From: Belliella buryatensis | Lineage (GTDB): Bacteria; Bacteroidota; Bacteroidia; Cytophagales; Cyclobacteriaceae | Direction of reading: 5' to 3' | Assembly (NCBI RefSeq): GCF_900188245.1 | Contig: NZ_FZOK01000005.1 | Span: forward strand, 1 to 64,000 | Length of the DNA: 64,000 bases | Shown: positions 8,444 to 55,128 of the stretch, one piece after another | How the letters are laid out: every line of letters begins with the position of its first letter | Numbering within the stretch: position 1 is the stretch's first letter | The notes under the pieces: model-generated | The model's input: the letters and a program-made list of their open reading frames with translations, nothing else | Database searches by the model: none | Told to the model about the DNA's origin: nothing | Program-made: the position numbers and the translations under genes

Positions 8444-8488
8444 TGAAACATAAAAAAATCGGTAGATTACCGGTTTTTTTATGTTTCA
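8444..8488. terminator. Long-stem bidirectional terminator
   Basis: A 21-bp stem with one G:T pair (arms 8444-8464 and 8468-8488, loop GAT) has A/T runs inside the arms. It therefore works as a terminator for the regulator on the plus strand and for the OmpA gene on the minus strand. Confidence 0.75.
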
Positions 8489-23850: not shown

Positions 23851-25068
23851 ATGAAAAACTCAATACTACTCTTTGCTTTTTTTAGCTTAATGCTTTTTTC
23901 TTGTCTCGGTGATGAAACAGAGACGGAACCAATCGTTGAAGAAGAAACTGGCTGGATTAAGCATCCAGAATATTTGAACGCTAATAAGATTATTAGAGGC
24001 TTATACGAATTAGAAGATAATTTGATAAGTCTTCATGACTTTGGTTATGGCGTGAAATCTTATTTTGATCGAGGGAGTTTTTCACAATTAAATTTTTTTG
24101 GACTTTCAATACCAGATGCAGGTTTGAGAGTTCATATGCCTTTCAATCAATCTTTTCCTATCAATGATAAGTTTATGGTGTTCAATATTGTTGAAAGGCC
24201 AAATAGTATTTTTGTTTATTCACTTAACGAGCCCACTAGTTTAAGTACATCATCAAATGGTTTAGAAATCAAAGGAAGTGAAATTGATCCTAATTTTAGG
24301 GTATTTAATTTTATTTTTAAATCAACTGGTAATGCTTTTGAATTAAATGGAAATTTTATCCTTTTGAGTTATTCAGTAAATAATGATCCATCAATGCCAC
24401 TGAGGTTTGCTATAATTGAAGTAGAGCAAAACACTACAAGTGGATTTAGGGTTGGAACAGAGCTTATTTCAATAAATACTTTTAAATCACCCCAAAAAGA
24501 AGGATTACTTGGTAATGGAGTGATGTCGATGCTTTCAGTTGAGGATGGTTTTATTATTTCGACTTGGTTTAGTTTGTTTAAGGTTGATTTTGAGGGGAAC
24601 ATTAAAGAATTTGAAAAAAATAATATCTATAATGGGAGAGAGCAATATGGGCAAAGCTACCTTGTCAAAGACCCAAGAACTAATGTGATCATATGTGCTG
24701 ATGCTACTGAACTTACAGATTCTTATTACTCTACAGATGATGGGGAATCTTGGTCAGTGTTGGCTGATTATAATCAACAAGACTCTTTCTTTAACTTGAA
24801 TCGCCTTTACTATAGAGAATTGAATGGTGATTTATATGGAACTAATAGTTCTCAAATTTTTAAAGTTTCAATTACCCCCAATAGTTTCATTTTAGATGAA
24901 TTAGATAATAGTGGTTTGGAAGGCCACGAGATTACAGGAATTAGTTCTTATTATCAAGATAGCTTGGTGATGGTATCAACTTATTCCGGTGCATTTTATA
25001 AGCCTTCAGCTGATTTCCTCAAACCCAAAATAAGTGATTCAATGGGGCTTTTTTCTGGTGGTTTTTAA
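23851..25068 (+). CDS. Lipoprotein with probable beta-propeller fold
   Basis: A lipoprotein signal (LLFAFFSLMLFSCLG, Cys at 18) is followed by an acidic linker and about 370 residues of strand-rich sequence. It includes an Asp-box-like YYSTDDGESWSVL (sialidase/BNR repeat motif) near residue 297 and several L-x-D-x-G-x-I turns. This suggests a surface beta-propeller; no catalytic residues are recognised. It is a single gene whose TAA ends at 25068, immediately next to the stop of the convergent gene at 25069 with no spacer. Family and ligand unknown. Confidence 0.65.
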   Translation: MKNSILLFAFFSLMLFSCLGDETETEPIVEEETGWIKHPEYLNANKIIRGLYELEDNLISLHDFGYGVKSYFDRGSFSQLNFFGLSIPDAGLRVHMPFNQSFPINDKFMVFNIVERPNSIFVYSLNEPTSLSTSSNGLEIKGSEIDPNFRVFNFIFKSTGNAFELNGNFILLSYSVNNDPSMPLRFAIIEVEQNTTSGFRVGTELISINTFKSPQKEGLLGNGVMSMLSVEDGFIISTWFSLFKVDFEGNIKEFEKNNIYNGREQYGQSYLVKDPRTNVIICADATELTDSYYSTDDGESWSVLADYNQQDSFFNLNRLYYRELNGDLYGTNSSQIFKVSITPNSFILDELDNSGLEGHEITGISSYYQDSLVMVSTYSGAFYKPSADFLKPKISDSMGLFSGGF

Positions 25069-26712
25069 TCATCCCACTTCCACATCAAAAGCCCCATTGA
25101 CAATCTTGCCATTGATTTTGACTTGGATCCAAACTCTGTATTTTCCTGACTCAGGAAATGCATAGGGAAAGCTGACCATACTGTGTTCATCATGCTCTTC
25201 ACCATAAAGTCTCTGATGATCCATATCTGCCATCAGCAGTTCGTCTCTTTCTTCATCTGAAAGCTGATTCAAGATTCGAATCACATTATCAATACTGTCT
25301 GGAAAACTTAACCCAGAAGGAAGATTGTTGAATCCAACTTTCCCTGATGCAAAGCGCTCTTTGAGCATTTGCTGAGATCCCATGGAATAATTGCCAGTAG
25401 GGTGGAGGTGAATGTAAACTGAGCCATCATGCTTCAATACCACCGCATGTCCCATCATTCCCAAATATGGCTCAAGCACAGCAGGCTCTCCATCTGAATC
25501 AAAAAGCGCAAAGTCCAAGGTGTACAACTTACCAGCATCAAACTTACCAGTTTCTGTTTCCCAAATAGCCGAATAACCACCTGGTAGATCTGTTTTGATA
25601 CCAGGTTTTCCACAAATCATAATGGCCTCGTCTAGCCGCAGTGGTTTGGGGTCTGAAACAGGGGTGGAAAATGTAAAAGTATCATCCCTCCCTAAAACAA
25701 ATTCCTTCTGACTGGCAAAGGAAAAAGTGCCTTGATCAGGAATTTGGAGATCAGCTACGATGGTTTCAGAAAAACCCGTGTATCTTGTAATATCAGCGAA
25801 TACATGATAATCTCCGGCAGGGAGGTCAGGTATACTGACACTGTAATTCAGGGTGTCAATTCTTTGCGGGTGTAAGTGAGCAAACACATCCAAATCCCCT
25901 TTTCTAATCAGAAACATGTGCATAAGCTTGCCATGGTCTGGTACCATGTAGCTAAGCTTTCGAGTGATTCTTCCTTGATTCAGTTCTTTGGGGTCTATGG
26001 ACAGGGTAAGCAAATTCCCATCCGAGCCGGTTTCTATTTGAGCACTGGCCGAAATGGGTTGAAAAAGGTACCGAGAATAGGTGTTAGCTTCTGCATCCCA
26101 CCAGTTTTTACCAGCCCACAAGATCAATAACATGCAAATAGATCCTAAGGCAATACCGATTTGGTTTCTCCTAATAGATGATTTATTTCTAATTTCTCCT
26201 GGTTCCCTGATACTCTCGCTCATGGCTGAACTAATGATCGTTACCATCAAGATGACTAAAAAAATACCCAATCCAGCCAAAATTAATCCCAATTCCTGTG
26301 GCATATCTCGCTGAGCAGTTGGCATGGCCATCACAGGAATGATGGTTTCAAATACCTCGCCATTTTGCTCTAGCATAATTTGAACACTTGAAGTGCCAGG
26401 CTCCATAAACCATAGCTCACCTTCGTATCTACCTGCTTCACCTTCAACAGGAAGCATTATATCTGCTTTTGGCGTGCCCTTTAATCCAGCAGACCAATAT
26501 ACTGGACGAGCCTCAATTTTTATATTCGATGGAGCATCTGGAAGGACTACAGTTAATGTGGCTGTGCCAGGAACTACATCGGGTGGATTGATATTGGCGA
26601 GCACTCTATAATTGCCAAGGAGTCCTTCGAAAGTCACCCCTGGACTTCCAATATGACTACTGACAAGAATGTAGATAAATAATATTGAGCAAATGCTGGT
26701 GAATCGTTTCAT
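25069..26712 (-). CDS. Membrane-anchored His-rich periplasmic protein with twin HLHP repeats
   Basis: A signal peptide is followed by a periplasmic beta-domain (about 28-130, YtkA/FixH-like by its PPDVVPGTATLTVVLPDAP opening). Two membrane helices (141-164, 185-200) precede a second, larger periplasmic region. That region holds two similar His-rich stretches: LMHMFLIRKGDLDVFAHLHP (about 264-283) and MGHAVVLKHDGSVYIHLHP (about 416-434). A Met/His/Asp-rich stretch (MADMDHQRLYGEEHDEH) follows near residue 500. The pattern suggests metal binding, copper most likely, in the periplasm. It lies 6 bases after the multi-spanning membrane protein gene, clearly one operon. No family function known to me; the metal role is inference. 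Confidence 0.75.
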   Translation of the reverse strand: MKRFTSICSILFIYILVSSHIGSPGVTFEGLLGNYRVLANINPPDVVPGTATLTVVLPDAPSNIKIEARPVYWSAGLKGTPKADIMLPVEGEAGRYEGELWFMEPGTSSVQIMLEQNGEVFETIIPVMAMPTAQRDMPQELGLILAGLGIFLVILMVTIISSAMSESIREPGEIRNKSSIRRNQIGIALGSICMLLILWAGKNWWDAEANTYSRYLFQPISASAQIETGSDGNLLTLSIDPKELNQGRITRKLSYMVPDHGKLMHMFLIRKGDLDVFAHLHPQRIDTLNYSVSIPDLPAGDYHVFADITRYTGFSETIVADLQIPDQGTFSFASQKEFVLGRDDTFTFSTPVSDPKPLRLDEAIMICGKPGIKTDLPGGYSAIWETETGKFDAGKLYTLDFALFDSDGEPAVLEPYLGMMGHAVVLKHDGSVYIHLHPTGNYSMGSQQMLKERFASGKVGFNNLPSGLSFPDSIDNVIRILNQLSDEERDELLMADMDHQRLYGEEHDEHSMVSFPYAFPESGKYRVWIQVKINGKIVNGAFDVEVG

Positions 26713-34658: not shown

Positions 34659-36419
34659 TTACCCTTTTGAAATCTCGATATTGACAATTTTACCTTTGAT
34701 AGTATTGTCTCTCATGACACTGATGACATGCTGTGCATCTTTTTGAGGCACATCTACAAAAGAGAAGTTGTCAAAGATATCAATACCTCCAATGCTTCTG
34801 CCCGGTACGCCAGTTTCTCCAGCAATTGCACCGACGATATCATTTGGACGAATTCTGTCTTTTGCACCAAGGTTGATAAATAGACGGGCCATACCCGGTT
34901 CTCTAACTCCTTTTTCTCTAGAAGATGTTCTTTCTCTTCTTGGAGCTCTTTCGCTTCTGTCTCCGCCTCTTTCAGAACGGTCTCTATTAGAGAATCTATC
35001 TCCTCTCTCACTTCTACCTCTGCTTCCGAAATCTCTTTCACCTCTTCTTGCGCCACGATCAGATCGGTCTCTTCCACCGCCTAGATCAAGTCCAAAGTTT
35101 TGATCTTCCATTTCTTTTACTGTTTCTCCCATTTGCAACTTGATCAAGCCAAGTGCAATTTGTTCGATACTCAGTCCTTCAGCAAGCATCATTCCGATTG
35201 TTTCTTCGAAAAGTTGGTTGTTTTCTTCTTTACTAATAGCTGTATTCACATCTTTTACCAAAGAAGCCTTTTTCAGCTCAACCAAGTCAGAAACTGATGG
35301 AGGATCCATCTTGTGGATGGATGTTTTGATGAACTTTTCAAGATCTCTTAATCTGTAAGTATCCTTTCTGCCAGTCACAAAGCTAAGTGCCATACCTGAC
35401 TTACCTGCTCTACCAGTTCTACCGATTCTATGTACGTAGTTTTCCTCATCCAATGGAAGGTCGTAGTTGAATACTGCTTCTACATCATCCACATCAATAC
35501 CTCTTGCAGCAACGTCAGTAGCTACTAGCACTGAGCAAGTCCCTTTTCTAAACTTGTTCATTACTTTGGTACGCTGAGCTTGAGAAAGGTCTCCATGAAG
35601 TGCCTCTGCCATGATTCCTTTAGAAATCAACGCTTCTGTTACTTCATCTGTTGCTCTTTTTGTATTACAGAAGACCACACTTAACTTGAATTGATTGATA
35701 TCCATCAATCTGGCCATCAATTCAATTCTTAAACTAGGTCTTACTTCATAATAAGCTTGAGAAATATTTTCTACTGTCAATTCTTTCCTTAGAACTTTCA
35801 CGATCTCAGGATTATCCTGATATTTTCTAGTCAAGTCAAGGATTGGCTTAGGCATTGTAGCTGAGAAAAATACAGTTTGTCTTTCTTCAGGCATTGAGCT
35901 CAAGATAGTCTCGATATCCTCTCTGAACCCCATATCCAACATCTCATCAGCTTCATCTAAAACGATAATGCTCACTTGACTAAGATTTAAAGTCCTTCTT
36001 TGCATGTGGTCCATGATTCGACCAGGGGTTCCAACTACAATCTGAACACCTCTCTTTAGGCTTTTGATTTGTCTATCAATAGACTCACCACCATAGATGC
36101 ATGTGCTGCTGATTCCTCTTTTGTACTTGGATAGTTTGACGATTTCTCCTTCTACCTGTACAGCCAATTCTCTGGTAGGGCATAGGATCAAAGCCTGTGG
36201 CTTGTTGATCGTAGGGTCTACTTGATCTATAATGGGAATACCAAAAGAAGCTGTCTTACCTGTTCCAGTTTGAGCTTGTCCAATGACATCTCTGCCTTCA
36301 AGCAAAAGTGGTATAGATTGTGATTGAATAGTAGAAGGTTGGGTATAGCCCATATCCTCTACTGCCTTTAGGATTTCTGATGAAATCCCAAGGTCTGAGA
36401 ATGTTAATTCTTTTTCCAT
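34659..36419 (-). CDS. DEAD-box RNA helicase (DeaD/CsdA-like)
   Basis: A cytoplasmic ATP-dependent RNA helicase of 586 residues. Q motif FSDLGISSEILKAVEDMGY, motif I AQTGTGKTA, PTRELA, motif II DEAD, SAT, DVAARGIDVD and HRIGRTGRAGKSG. After the core comes an Arg/Gly/Ser-rich tail (about 455-515) and then a DbpA-type RNA-binding domain beginning ARLFINLGAKDRIRPNDIVG. Likely roles are ribosome assembly and cold adaptation. I chose the ATG at 36419 over a TTG at 36443: it starts directly before the Q motif and has an AAGGA at ideal distance. That AAGGA is buried in an inverted repeat (see leader). Confidence 0.93.
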   Translation of the reverse strand: MEKELTFSDLGISSEILKAVEDMGYTQPSTIQSQSIPLLLEGRDVIGQAQTGTGKTASFGIPIIDQVDPTINKPQALILCPTRELAVQVEGEIVKLSKYKRGISSTCIYGGESIDRQIKSLKRGVQIVVGTPGRIMDHMQRRTLNLSQVSIIVLDEADEMLDMGFREDIETILSSMPEERQTVFFSATMPKPILDLTRKYQDNPEIVKVLRKELTVENISQAYYEVRPSLRIELMARLMDINQFKLSVVFCNTKRATDEVTEALISKGIMAEALHGDLSQAQRTKVMNKFRKGTCSVLVATDVAARGIDVDDVEAVFNYDLPLDEENYVHRIGRTGRAGKSGMALSFVTGRKDTYRLRDLEKFIKTSIHKMDPPSVSDLVELKKASLVKDVNTAISKEENNQLFEETIGMMLAEGLSIEQIALGLIKLQMGETVKEMEDQNFGLDLGGGRDRSDRGARRGERDFGSRGRSERGDRFSNRDRSERGGDRSERAPRRERTSSREKGVREPGMARLFINLGAKDRIRPNDIVGAIAGETGVPGRSIGGIDIFDNFSFVDVPQKDAQHVISVMRDNTIKGKIVNIEISKG

Positions 36420-36525
36420 GAAATGTTTCCTTACTTTTCTCAACCATGATTTCCTAAGAACCTCCTATTGTTAGCGACAGTAAGGAAACCCACGGCTAGA
36501 AAAATGTTATAATTTTATTCGGGTG
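36419..36525 (-). promoter_or_regulatory. Structured 5' leader of the helicase gene
   Basis: In the transcript GTTTCCTTACT (36479-36489) can pair perfectly over 11 bp with AGTAAGGAAAC (36425-36435). The 3' arm contains the AAGGA Shine-Dalgarno, 8 bases before the ATG, so folding would hide it. The 43-base loop holds an AGGAGG (36461-36466) and an ATG at 36447 that opens a 49-codon frame running through the 3' arm into the gene out of frame. This resembles a translational switch or autoregulated leader. Confidence 0.55.
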
Positions 36526-36556
36526 CAAAGATATGATGAAATAAATTGAATTCCAA
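36526..36556 (-). promoter_or_regulatory. Promoter of the helicase gene
   Basis: On the minus strand TATCTTTG (36526-36533) is a full TAnnTTTG match, with TTG at 36554-36556 about 20 bases upstream. It predicts a leader of roughly 100 bases. Confidence 0.5.
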
Positions 36557-36631: not shown

Positions 36632-36670
36632 TAAAAAATCAAAATACCCCAATAATTTATGGGGTATTTA
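36632..36670 (-). terminator. Intrinsic terminator of the ACBP gene
   Basis: On the minus strand AAATACCCCA pairs with TGGGGTATTT (36660-36669 and 36642-36651), followed by TTGATTTTTT. Confidence 0.75.
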
Positions 36671-36672
36671 CT

Positions 36673-36933
36673 TTATAAATATTTTGATGAAATTTCGTTT
36701 ACAAAAGCAATGTATTGTTCTGAAGCTTCTCCTTTGCTTTTCCCACTTTGATTGAGCCAAGCATTGTATTTGGCTGCTGCCACGAAATCAAAGCCCCCAG
36801 GTCTCTCTCCTTCATTGTCTCCTTCGGTAGCTTGCTTGTATAGTGCGTATATTTTTAATAATTCTTCATTACTTGGCTTTGAAGTAAATTTTTTTGTCAA
36901 AGCTACGGCTTCTTCTAAGGTCTTAGCGTCCAT
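36673..36933 (-). CDS. Acyl-CoA-binding protein
   Basis: An 86-residue four-helix protein matching ACBP: LLKIYALYKQATEGD, then RPGGFDFVAAAKYNAWLNQSGKSKGEASEQYI, with the conserved YxxYKQAT, KxxAW and YI acyl-CoA contacts. It binds long-chain acyl-CoA in the cytoplasm and buffers or delivers it. ACBPs are less common in bacteria than in eukaryotes but regular in Bacteroidota. It is monocistronic, with a TATATTTG box at 36963-36970 and its own terminator. Confidence 0.93.
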   Translation of the reverse strand: MDAKTLEEAVALTKKFTSKPSNEELLKIYALYKQATEGDNEGERPGGFDFVAAAKYNAWLNQSGKSKGEASEQYIAFVNEISSKYL

Positions 36934-55038: not shown

Positions 55039-55088
55039 AAAAGGCCACACCGCCACTTGATAAAAGTGGACTTGCATATTTAGCAAAA

Positions 55089-55128
55089 GCCTAGAATTTT
55101 CAGAATATTGAAAATTCTAGGCTTTTTT
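55089..55128 (+). terminator. Intrinsic terminator of the symporter gene
   Basis: A perfect 14-bp stem (GCCTAGAATTTTCA 55089-55102, TGAAAATTCTAGGC 55109-55122), 6-base loop, then six T. Confidence 0.85.

Follow-up and report, generated by a model that had tools for sequence, protein, structure and literature searches.

Mutually exclusive helices at the start region are a familiar feature of translational riboswitches and ribosomal-protein leaders, and the leader of the Escherichia coli cspA mRNA adopts alternative structures that respond to cold. The helicase leader described here resembles riboswitches and ribosomal-protein leaders in having exclusive helices that would expose or hide the start region, but it matches no Rfam family and is not known to have a ligand or protein partner. 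It is like the cspA leader in preceding the gene of an RNA-remodelling protein and in a rearrangement of the kind that, in cspA, is described as freeing or hiding the ribosome-binding site (PMC8346122); it differs in that its two folds share one arm, its gene encodes a DEAD-box helicase and the predicted effect of temperature is small in most genera. The Synechocystis crhR gene also encodes a DEAD-box helicase, for which autoregulation involving temperature has been reported; transcriptional and post-transcriptional steps have been assigned and direct action of CrhR is left open, and a search of the text of that report gave no mention of an untranslated region (PMC3485376). In a similar vein, RNase E (rne) and RNase J (rnj) are RNA-processing enzymes that sense their own activity through the 5'-UTR of their own mRNA, although this works via mRNA decay and no alternative-fold switch appears in the relevant passages of the source (PMC5874925). 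Finally, bS21 (rpsU) of Flavobacterium johnsoniae is a Bacteroidia gene for a component of the translation machinery whose start region is unusual in containing an SD, but there the reader is described as the anti-SD of the ribosome (PMC9976891), in place of the alternative RNA fold considered here. Among the open-access titles and abstract openings listed, none describes a helicase leader of this kind, which is not proof of its absence. The kind of switch is known; what is new to the sources searched (Rfam and open-access literature) is this RNA, together with the gene that follows it and the input to which it may respond.

The locus lies on the minus strand of a 64,000-nucleotide stretch of the Belliella buryatensis genome (contig NZ_FZOK01000005.1), hereafter the window, and comprises the following features:

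36526 to 36533, minus strand: promoter -7-like motif TATCTTTG (TAnnTTTG), with a predicted transcript start at about 36518-36523.
36499 to 36504, minus strand: UUUUUC, which forms the 5' side of the lower stem in helix B, seen in folds, in duplexes and in the alignment fitted to B.
36479 to 36496, minus strand: 5' arm GCCGTGGGTTTCCTTACT, common to both helices; its partner is the start region in A and the decoy in B.
36473 to 36478, minus strand: GTCGCT, a loop motif that reads GTYGCT in many relatives, from the alignment.
36442 to 36455, minus strand: decoy AGGAAATCATGGTT, similar to the start region and partner of the 5' arm in helix B; it holds an alternative ATG at 36447-36445.
36435 to 36441, minus strand: GAGAAAA, which forms the 3' side of the lower stem in helix B, seen in folds, duplexes and alignment.
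36425 to 36435, minus strand: 3' arm AGTAAGGAAAC of helix A, containing the SD-like AAGGA at 36432-36428.
36416 to 36421, minus strand: UCAUGG, including the helicase start codon; its partner in helix A is CCGUGG at 36495-36490.
34659 to 36419, minus strand: DEAD-box RNA helicase gene (586 aa) with its ATG at 36419-36417 and Pfam matches over cut-off for DEAD, Helicase_C and the DbpA RNA-binding domain.

The first-pass annotation of this locus had described an 11-bp perfect inverted repeat that would bury the ribosome-binding site of the helicase. The repeat is there, GTTTCCTTACT (36489-36479) being fully complementary to AGTAAGGAAAC, with AAGGA inside the 3' arm and 8 nt ahead of the helicase ATG, and the loop does contain an AGGAGG (36466-36461) and an ATG that opens a 49-codon reading frame out of frame with the helicase. 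The predicted start-hiding hairpin is kept over 22 genera, but as a description of the leader it is incomplete, since it constitutes one half of a putative two-state system. Helix A is longer than first noted, as its pairing reaches the start codon through CCGUGG/UCAUGG in the alignment consensus, and the 5' arm has a second possible partner in the loop, the decoy, with which it can form a helix B that leaves the start free. Both helices use the same 5' arm and are mutually exclusive. The minimum free energy (MFE) fold of the window leader lacks the first-noted hairpin and pairs the 5' arm with AGGAAATCATGGTT and UUUUUC with GAGAAAA. We read this leader, which is about 105 nt long in our model and was taken as 147 nt in the stability test on the window, as a cis-acting two-state RNA switch of translation, the exchange of which might be driven by the helicase itself, and we place the probability of this reading at about 0.55.

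The helicase gene is the top scorer among the 23 DEAD-domain matches of the genome (17 of them over cut-off), and its DEAD, Helicase_C and DbpA domains are those that define a DEAD-box helicase with a DbpA-type RNA-binding domain; of the NCBIfam rows listed for it (25 of 42), none lies over its cut-off, and no subtype name is given here. The Bacteroidota promoter consensus consists of TAnnTTTG and an upstream TTG. In 64 of the 65 leaders identified below TAnnTTTG was found 35-44 nt upstream of the 5' arm (searched within 75 nt), and in 56 of these 64 a TTG lies 14-32 nt farther upstream. Because the promoter-like motif precedes the arm, both arms are probably part of the transcript, and the start predicted from it in the window agrees with this, as opposed to a start downstream of 36479 that would remove the 5' arm. 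Farther upstream, between the preceding gene and the helicase promoter, lies a palindrome, AAATACCCCAATAATTTATGGGGTATTT (36642-36669), that looks terminator-like by eye and would fit transcription of the helicase independently of the upstream gene. The latter (36673-36933, minus strand) is an 86-aa ORF with no NCBIfam family among the matches listed, which we take to resemble an acyl-CoA-binding protein.

Of 245 Cyclobacteriaceae genomes searched with a covariance model, 65, from 22 of 84 genera, carry the leader, with a single match per genome that lies, in all 65 cases, directly 5' of an ORF with a DEAD-box helicase motif. No further copies were found in the genome of the window, only chance-level pieces of 14-21 nt. 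Across eight genomes of the window's genus (its own included) the leader is near-invariant and the sequence upstream of the promoter has diverged. In a 60-genome sample of the family, the 17 genomes with a helicase orthologue at 69% identity or more are all within the covariance-model hits, and two genomes with orthologues at 52-57% identity have no leader match at that locus; in a 291-genome sample of the order, the 22 family genomes with the orthologue are exactly the 22 that carry the RNA. The leader is also present at seven of seven named loci of the family (Rhodonellum psychrophilum, Mongoliitalea lutea, three Algoriphagus and two Cyclobacteriaceae bacteria), at least four of which are probably duplicates of sampled genomes (L107/G076, L108/G027, L111/G215 and L112/G181) and are not independent. 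Genome searches ran with the stricter filters of Infernal, which miss weak matches, and under these conditions a phylum sample of 395 genomes gave five matches, all within the Cyclobacteriaceae, and a class sample of 345 genomes searched with a broader model (R3) gave five family matches plus one in G935 (E 0.003). This last match precedes a transporter-like gene (translation read by eye), has no clear arms and was rejected as a homologue and taken as chance. Among named loci of other Cytophagales, 21 of 21 gave no match up to E 5 (of a set of 28 loci, two gave no start), and 60 helicase leaders of the order gave none better than E 0.86. In Rfam no family lies over its gathering threshold anywhere in the window, with only weak, chance-like matches near the leader (best E 0.3).

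Pairing was assessed on alignment A1, with 19 of 23 leaders (the congeners L011, L012, L014 and L016 excluded), and on alignments A2 and A3, with 61 of the 65 leaders in 56 distinct rows (L041, L043, L059 and L096 excluded as identical over the leader); tests at genus level used one representative per genus, and all shuffle and permutation statistics ignore relatedness. The arms proposed in the first-pass annotation turn out to be conserved in related genomes, helix A being paired over the 22 genera in 97.1% of cells in the alignment fitted to A and in 96.8% in that fitted to B (40-52% in slid controls), with standard pairs in 100% of the cells of its UCAUGG/CCGUGG part. This helix is mostly invariant, with seven double-change cells at two pairs; none of 500 shuffles reaches seven such cells, and 76 and 79 reach two pairs. 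The first alignment of 19 leaders has a double change at no pair. The clearest single covarying pair lies just outside helix A (GC 34, AU 17, GU 3, other 2). With its lower stem included (16 pairs), helix B is paired in 93.8% of cells when the alignment is fitted to it, against 49-63% in slid controls, the lower stem by itself in 93.9%, and there are 20 double-change cells at four pairs, numbers reached by 0 and 2 of 500 shuffles, respectively; the number of pair types is reached by 103 of 500. When the alignment is instead fitted to A, a 14-pair version of helix B, which omits the lower stem and includes three other pairs, is paired in 84.5% of cells. There is no excess of changed pairs or types in this case: of 500 shuffles, 9 have as many double-change cells (25), 125 as many changed pairs (four) and 438 as many pair types.

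Exchanging arms and partners among the 22 genus representatives revealed that cognate duplexes are stronger than swapped ones, the number of permutations as low, out of 20000, being 832 for arm:decoy, 109 when the upstream UUUUUC is included and 64 for arm:start. Against shuffled partners, the arm:start duplex is matched by at most 2 of 300 shuffles in 22 of 22 genera, and the arm:decoy duplex by at most 15 of 300 (5%) shuffled decoy regions in 16; its signal is weaker in the other six (g19, g27, g32, g39, g47 and g67). By eye, decoy pairing is mismatched in L102-type and g47 leaders. On these comparisons helix A appears well supported and helix B fairly well supported. In the 56 distinct sequences the conserved helix A covers the ribosome-binding site and the start codon, as a sequestor would, and helix B, a competitor for the same arm that is conserved in its own right (93.8% or 84.5% of cells, depending on the alignment), occupies the place of an anti-sequestor, with a weak signal against shuffles in six of the 22 genera. 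A two-state anatomy of the leader is, in our judgement, very likely.

Further information comes from outside the family. A model based on B matched the genome G665, from another family of the Cytophagales (E 0.003), directly before its helicase gene; its sister G690 was unmatched in that search, yet has the same leader on inspection. In this pair the start context reads UAUGCAAC instead of UCAUGGA and the arm GCCGUUGC instead of CCGUGG, and both pairings are possible (arm:decoy, -26.7 and -21.8 kcal/mol; arm:start, -17.2 and -17.8 kcal/mol), and B's lower stem, judged by eye, has been exchanged as a unit, AUC.UUCC facing GGAAGAU. These leaders, rewritten yet still paired, are the most telling argument for selection on both helices, although they amount to two related sequences. 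The predicted MFE folds of the second-family leaders L248 and L249 include an extra inner hairpin, CTTGCTGTTGTC/GACAGCGGCAAG, that spans the decoy, would compete with B and represents a possible third state. Among other helicase leaders of the Cytophagales, 12 of 57 pair the start region upstream at no more than 2 of 200 shuffles (57 of 60 were used; the starts of L207, L208 and L224 lie too close to the end of the stretch), and eight of the 12 belong to a single family, f2, which by sequence likeness includes Hymenobacter. As a separate observation, ten Hymenobacter-type helicase leaders (L187, L188, L191, L192, L202, L204, L162, L163, L165 and L168) have a hairpin near the start codon with variable arms and a largely constant loop, GCGTCGCTGAATCCGCTGTTTTCAGAGC. 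They give no match to the model of the present element and, their arms being unrelated, may by analogy perhaps be seen as a parallel solution.

The window has a general excess of perfect 11-bp inverted repeats (loops of 3-60 nt), with 20 overlapping hits at six places against a mean of 2.35 overlapping hits in 20 Markov-1 simulations, so that the repeat by itself is weak evidence and was rejected as an argument in its own right. Longer perfect inverted repeats (about 14-18 bp, as judged from overlapping 11-bp hits in series), possibly terminators, occur at 8444-8488, 25039-25100 and 55085-55126. The 147-nt window leader as a whole is not exceptionally stable (z -1.35; 18 of 200 shuffles are equally stable). 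Among 53 ORFs of the window, the helicase included, the duplex between start region and upstream sequence is strongest in this leader (-30.3 kcal/mol, the next being -23.0), and start-region pairing at no more than 2 of 200 shuffles is seen in two of them, one being the helicase; the same threshold is reached by 19 of the 22 genus representatives of the element. Conservation of the leader in relatives argues against a chance origin.

The energies of A and B were obtained with one pairing forbidden at a time and compared with neither. Relative to neither fold, at 25 C the predicted gain across the 22 genera is -4.4 to -19.0 kcal/mol for A and -5.3 to -14.6 kcal/mol for B, and the two are close in most genera (median A minus B, -1.1 kcal/mol), with B favoured in seven genera, that of the window included, and A slightly in 15; some genera strongly favour one state, A by 9.9 kcal/mol in g32 and B by 7.2 kcal/mol in g70. 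In growing-transcript folds of the window leader, computed for an assumed transcript start at 36523, B is complete at 80 nt, ahead of the start region (nt 90-108), and in prefixes of 110 nt or more A has a probability of between 0.02 and 0.88, depending on length and temperature. In yeast, mRNA helices that exclude one another, with energies of -15 to -25 kcal/mol, have been described as folding in the order of their synthesis, and exchange between them can be slow above a stability threshold, with proteins on the nascent transcript suggested to help branch migration (PMC2817708); the arm duplexes of the present leader have predicted strengths of -17 to -28 kcal/mol.

Based on these observations, it seems reasonable to postulate the following scheme. 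State A, with the 5' arm paired to the SD-like AAGGA and the start codon, would be OFF, and state B, with the arm paired to the upstream decoy and the lower stem UUUUUC/GAGAAAA formed, would be ON and expose the true start; that the leader exerts translational control with A as its OFF state is, in our estimation, probable. Because the decoy is transcribed first, B could form before the start region exists, and A would then have to displace it. In cells this exchange may be slow and might be sped up by an RNA-unwinding activity, most simply that of the helicase itself, a DEAD-box helicase being, by analogy, a plausible natural catalyst of helix exchange and the controlled gene encoding one. 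With ample helicase, B would be remodelled to A and translation would fall; with little free helicase, as might occur in the cold or with much structured RNA, B would persist and more helicase would be produced. That the helicase drives the exchange from B to A is a tentative proposition; feedback by the helicase is plausible, its sign not being readable from the sequence.

Other explanations have to be weighed against this scheme. In the first-pass annotation, the leader is a single sequestering hairpin, in which A is the default OFF state, the helicase melts A in a positive feedback and B is incidental. This is consistent with the better conservation of helix A, its coverage of AAGGA and start codon, arm:start duplexes that beat shuffles in 22 of 22 genera and the slight preference for A in 15 of 22 at 25 C, but helix B has a compensatory pair and a lower stem of its own and is kept in another family, and positive feedback alone would presumably leave the helicase level unlimited; we regard the single hairpin as an unlikely account. 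The annotation had also suggested that temperature could set the fold, and a cspA-type leader in which temperature alone moves the balance between A and B would agree with the decrease in genera predicted to favour B (9, 8, 7, 5 and 3 of 22 at 4, 15, 25, 37 and 50 C, respectively) and with six genera in which warming from 4 to 37 C shifts the balance by 1.8-6.0 kcal/mol towards A. Over the same range, however, the shift is at most 1.1 kcal/mol in 14 of 22 genera (0.3 in that of the window) and is of mixed sign in the other eight (1.7-6.0 kcal/mol, with warming favouring A in six and B in two), and the accessibility of AAGGA in the window leader goes only from 0.50 to 0.66 between 4 and 60 C. 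Temperature as a general, direct switch of the fold is not supported by these predictions; as sole cause we have rejected it, and a cold-sensing leader of this type appears quite improbable.

The two remaining explanations concern the loop. A factor, such as the DbpA-type domain of the helicase, a ribosomal protein or a small molecule, might bind the loop and select A or B, as could be expected from the motifs GTYGCT and GGGA, which are conserved and not consistently paired, and from the DbpA RNA-binding domain of the product. The leader matches no known Rfam family, though, and the idea that the loop mimics 23S rRNA as a ligand of that domain was rejected, since 12-92 of 100 shuffles score as high for five loops compared with the genome's 23S rRNA; we regard selection by a loop-binding factor as doubtful. 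As for the upstream reading frame, initiation at the decoy ATG could alter the leader fold or initiation at the helicase start. The decoy region contains an ATG in 47 of 65 sequences and 18 of 22 genera, the ATG opens a two-codon ORF in several of these genera and, where present, it is predicted to be paired in state B but unpaired in A; moreover, a retained AUG could matter because start sites in the Bacteroidia are said to avoid nearby AUGs (PMC9976891). Against this, four of the 22 genera have no such ATG, the ORFs among the rows listed occupy all three frames and vary in length between 1 and 538 codons, and the AGGAGG stands at its first-noted position in only four of 61 leaders. In g21 (L063, L064) and g78 (L073, L075) the decoy ATG shares the reading frame of the helicase, and a nine-residue N-terminal extension of the enzyme is possible there. 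Neither start nor frame being conserved, a function of the upstream ORF was rejected, and control through it is very improbable; to judge from the alignments, conservation of the leader follows pairing rather than coding.

Returning to the two-state switch, its most specific form would have the leader gauge RNA-unwinding capacity, with a kinetically trapped ON fold B converted into the OFF fold A by helicase activity, so that the level sets itself; this is a possibility that we put forward tentatively. If true, the helicase would set its own level by doing to its own mRNA what it ordinarily does. A compact leader in which two competing helices share one arm, with a single copy per genome ahead of one helicase gene, would allow a direct test of whether RNA-remodelling activity can be gauged through the fold of a single mRNA, in a field in which the control of bacterial helicase levels has been stated to be not well characterised (PMC3485376). 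Given that the choice of start sites in the Bacteroidia is said to depend on low structure and on the absence of nearby AUGs (PMC9976891), this leader also bears on start-site choice in that class.
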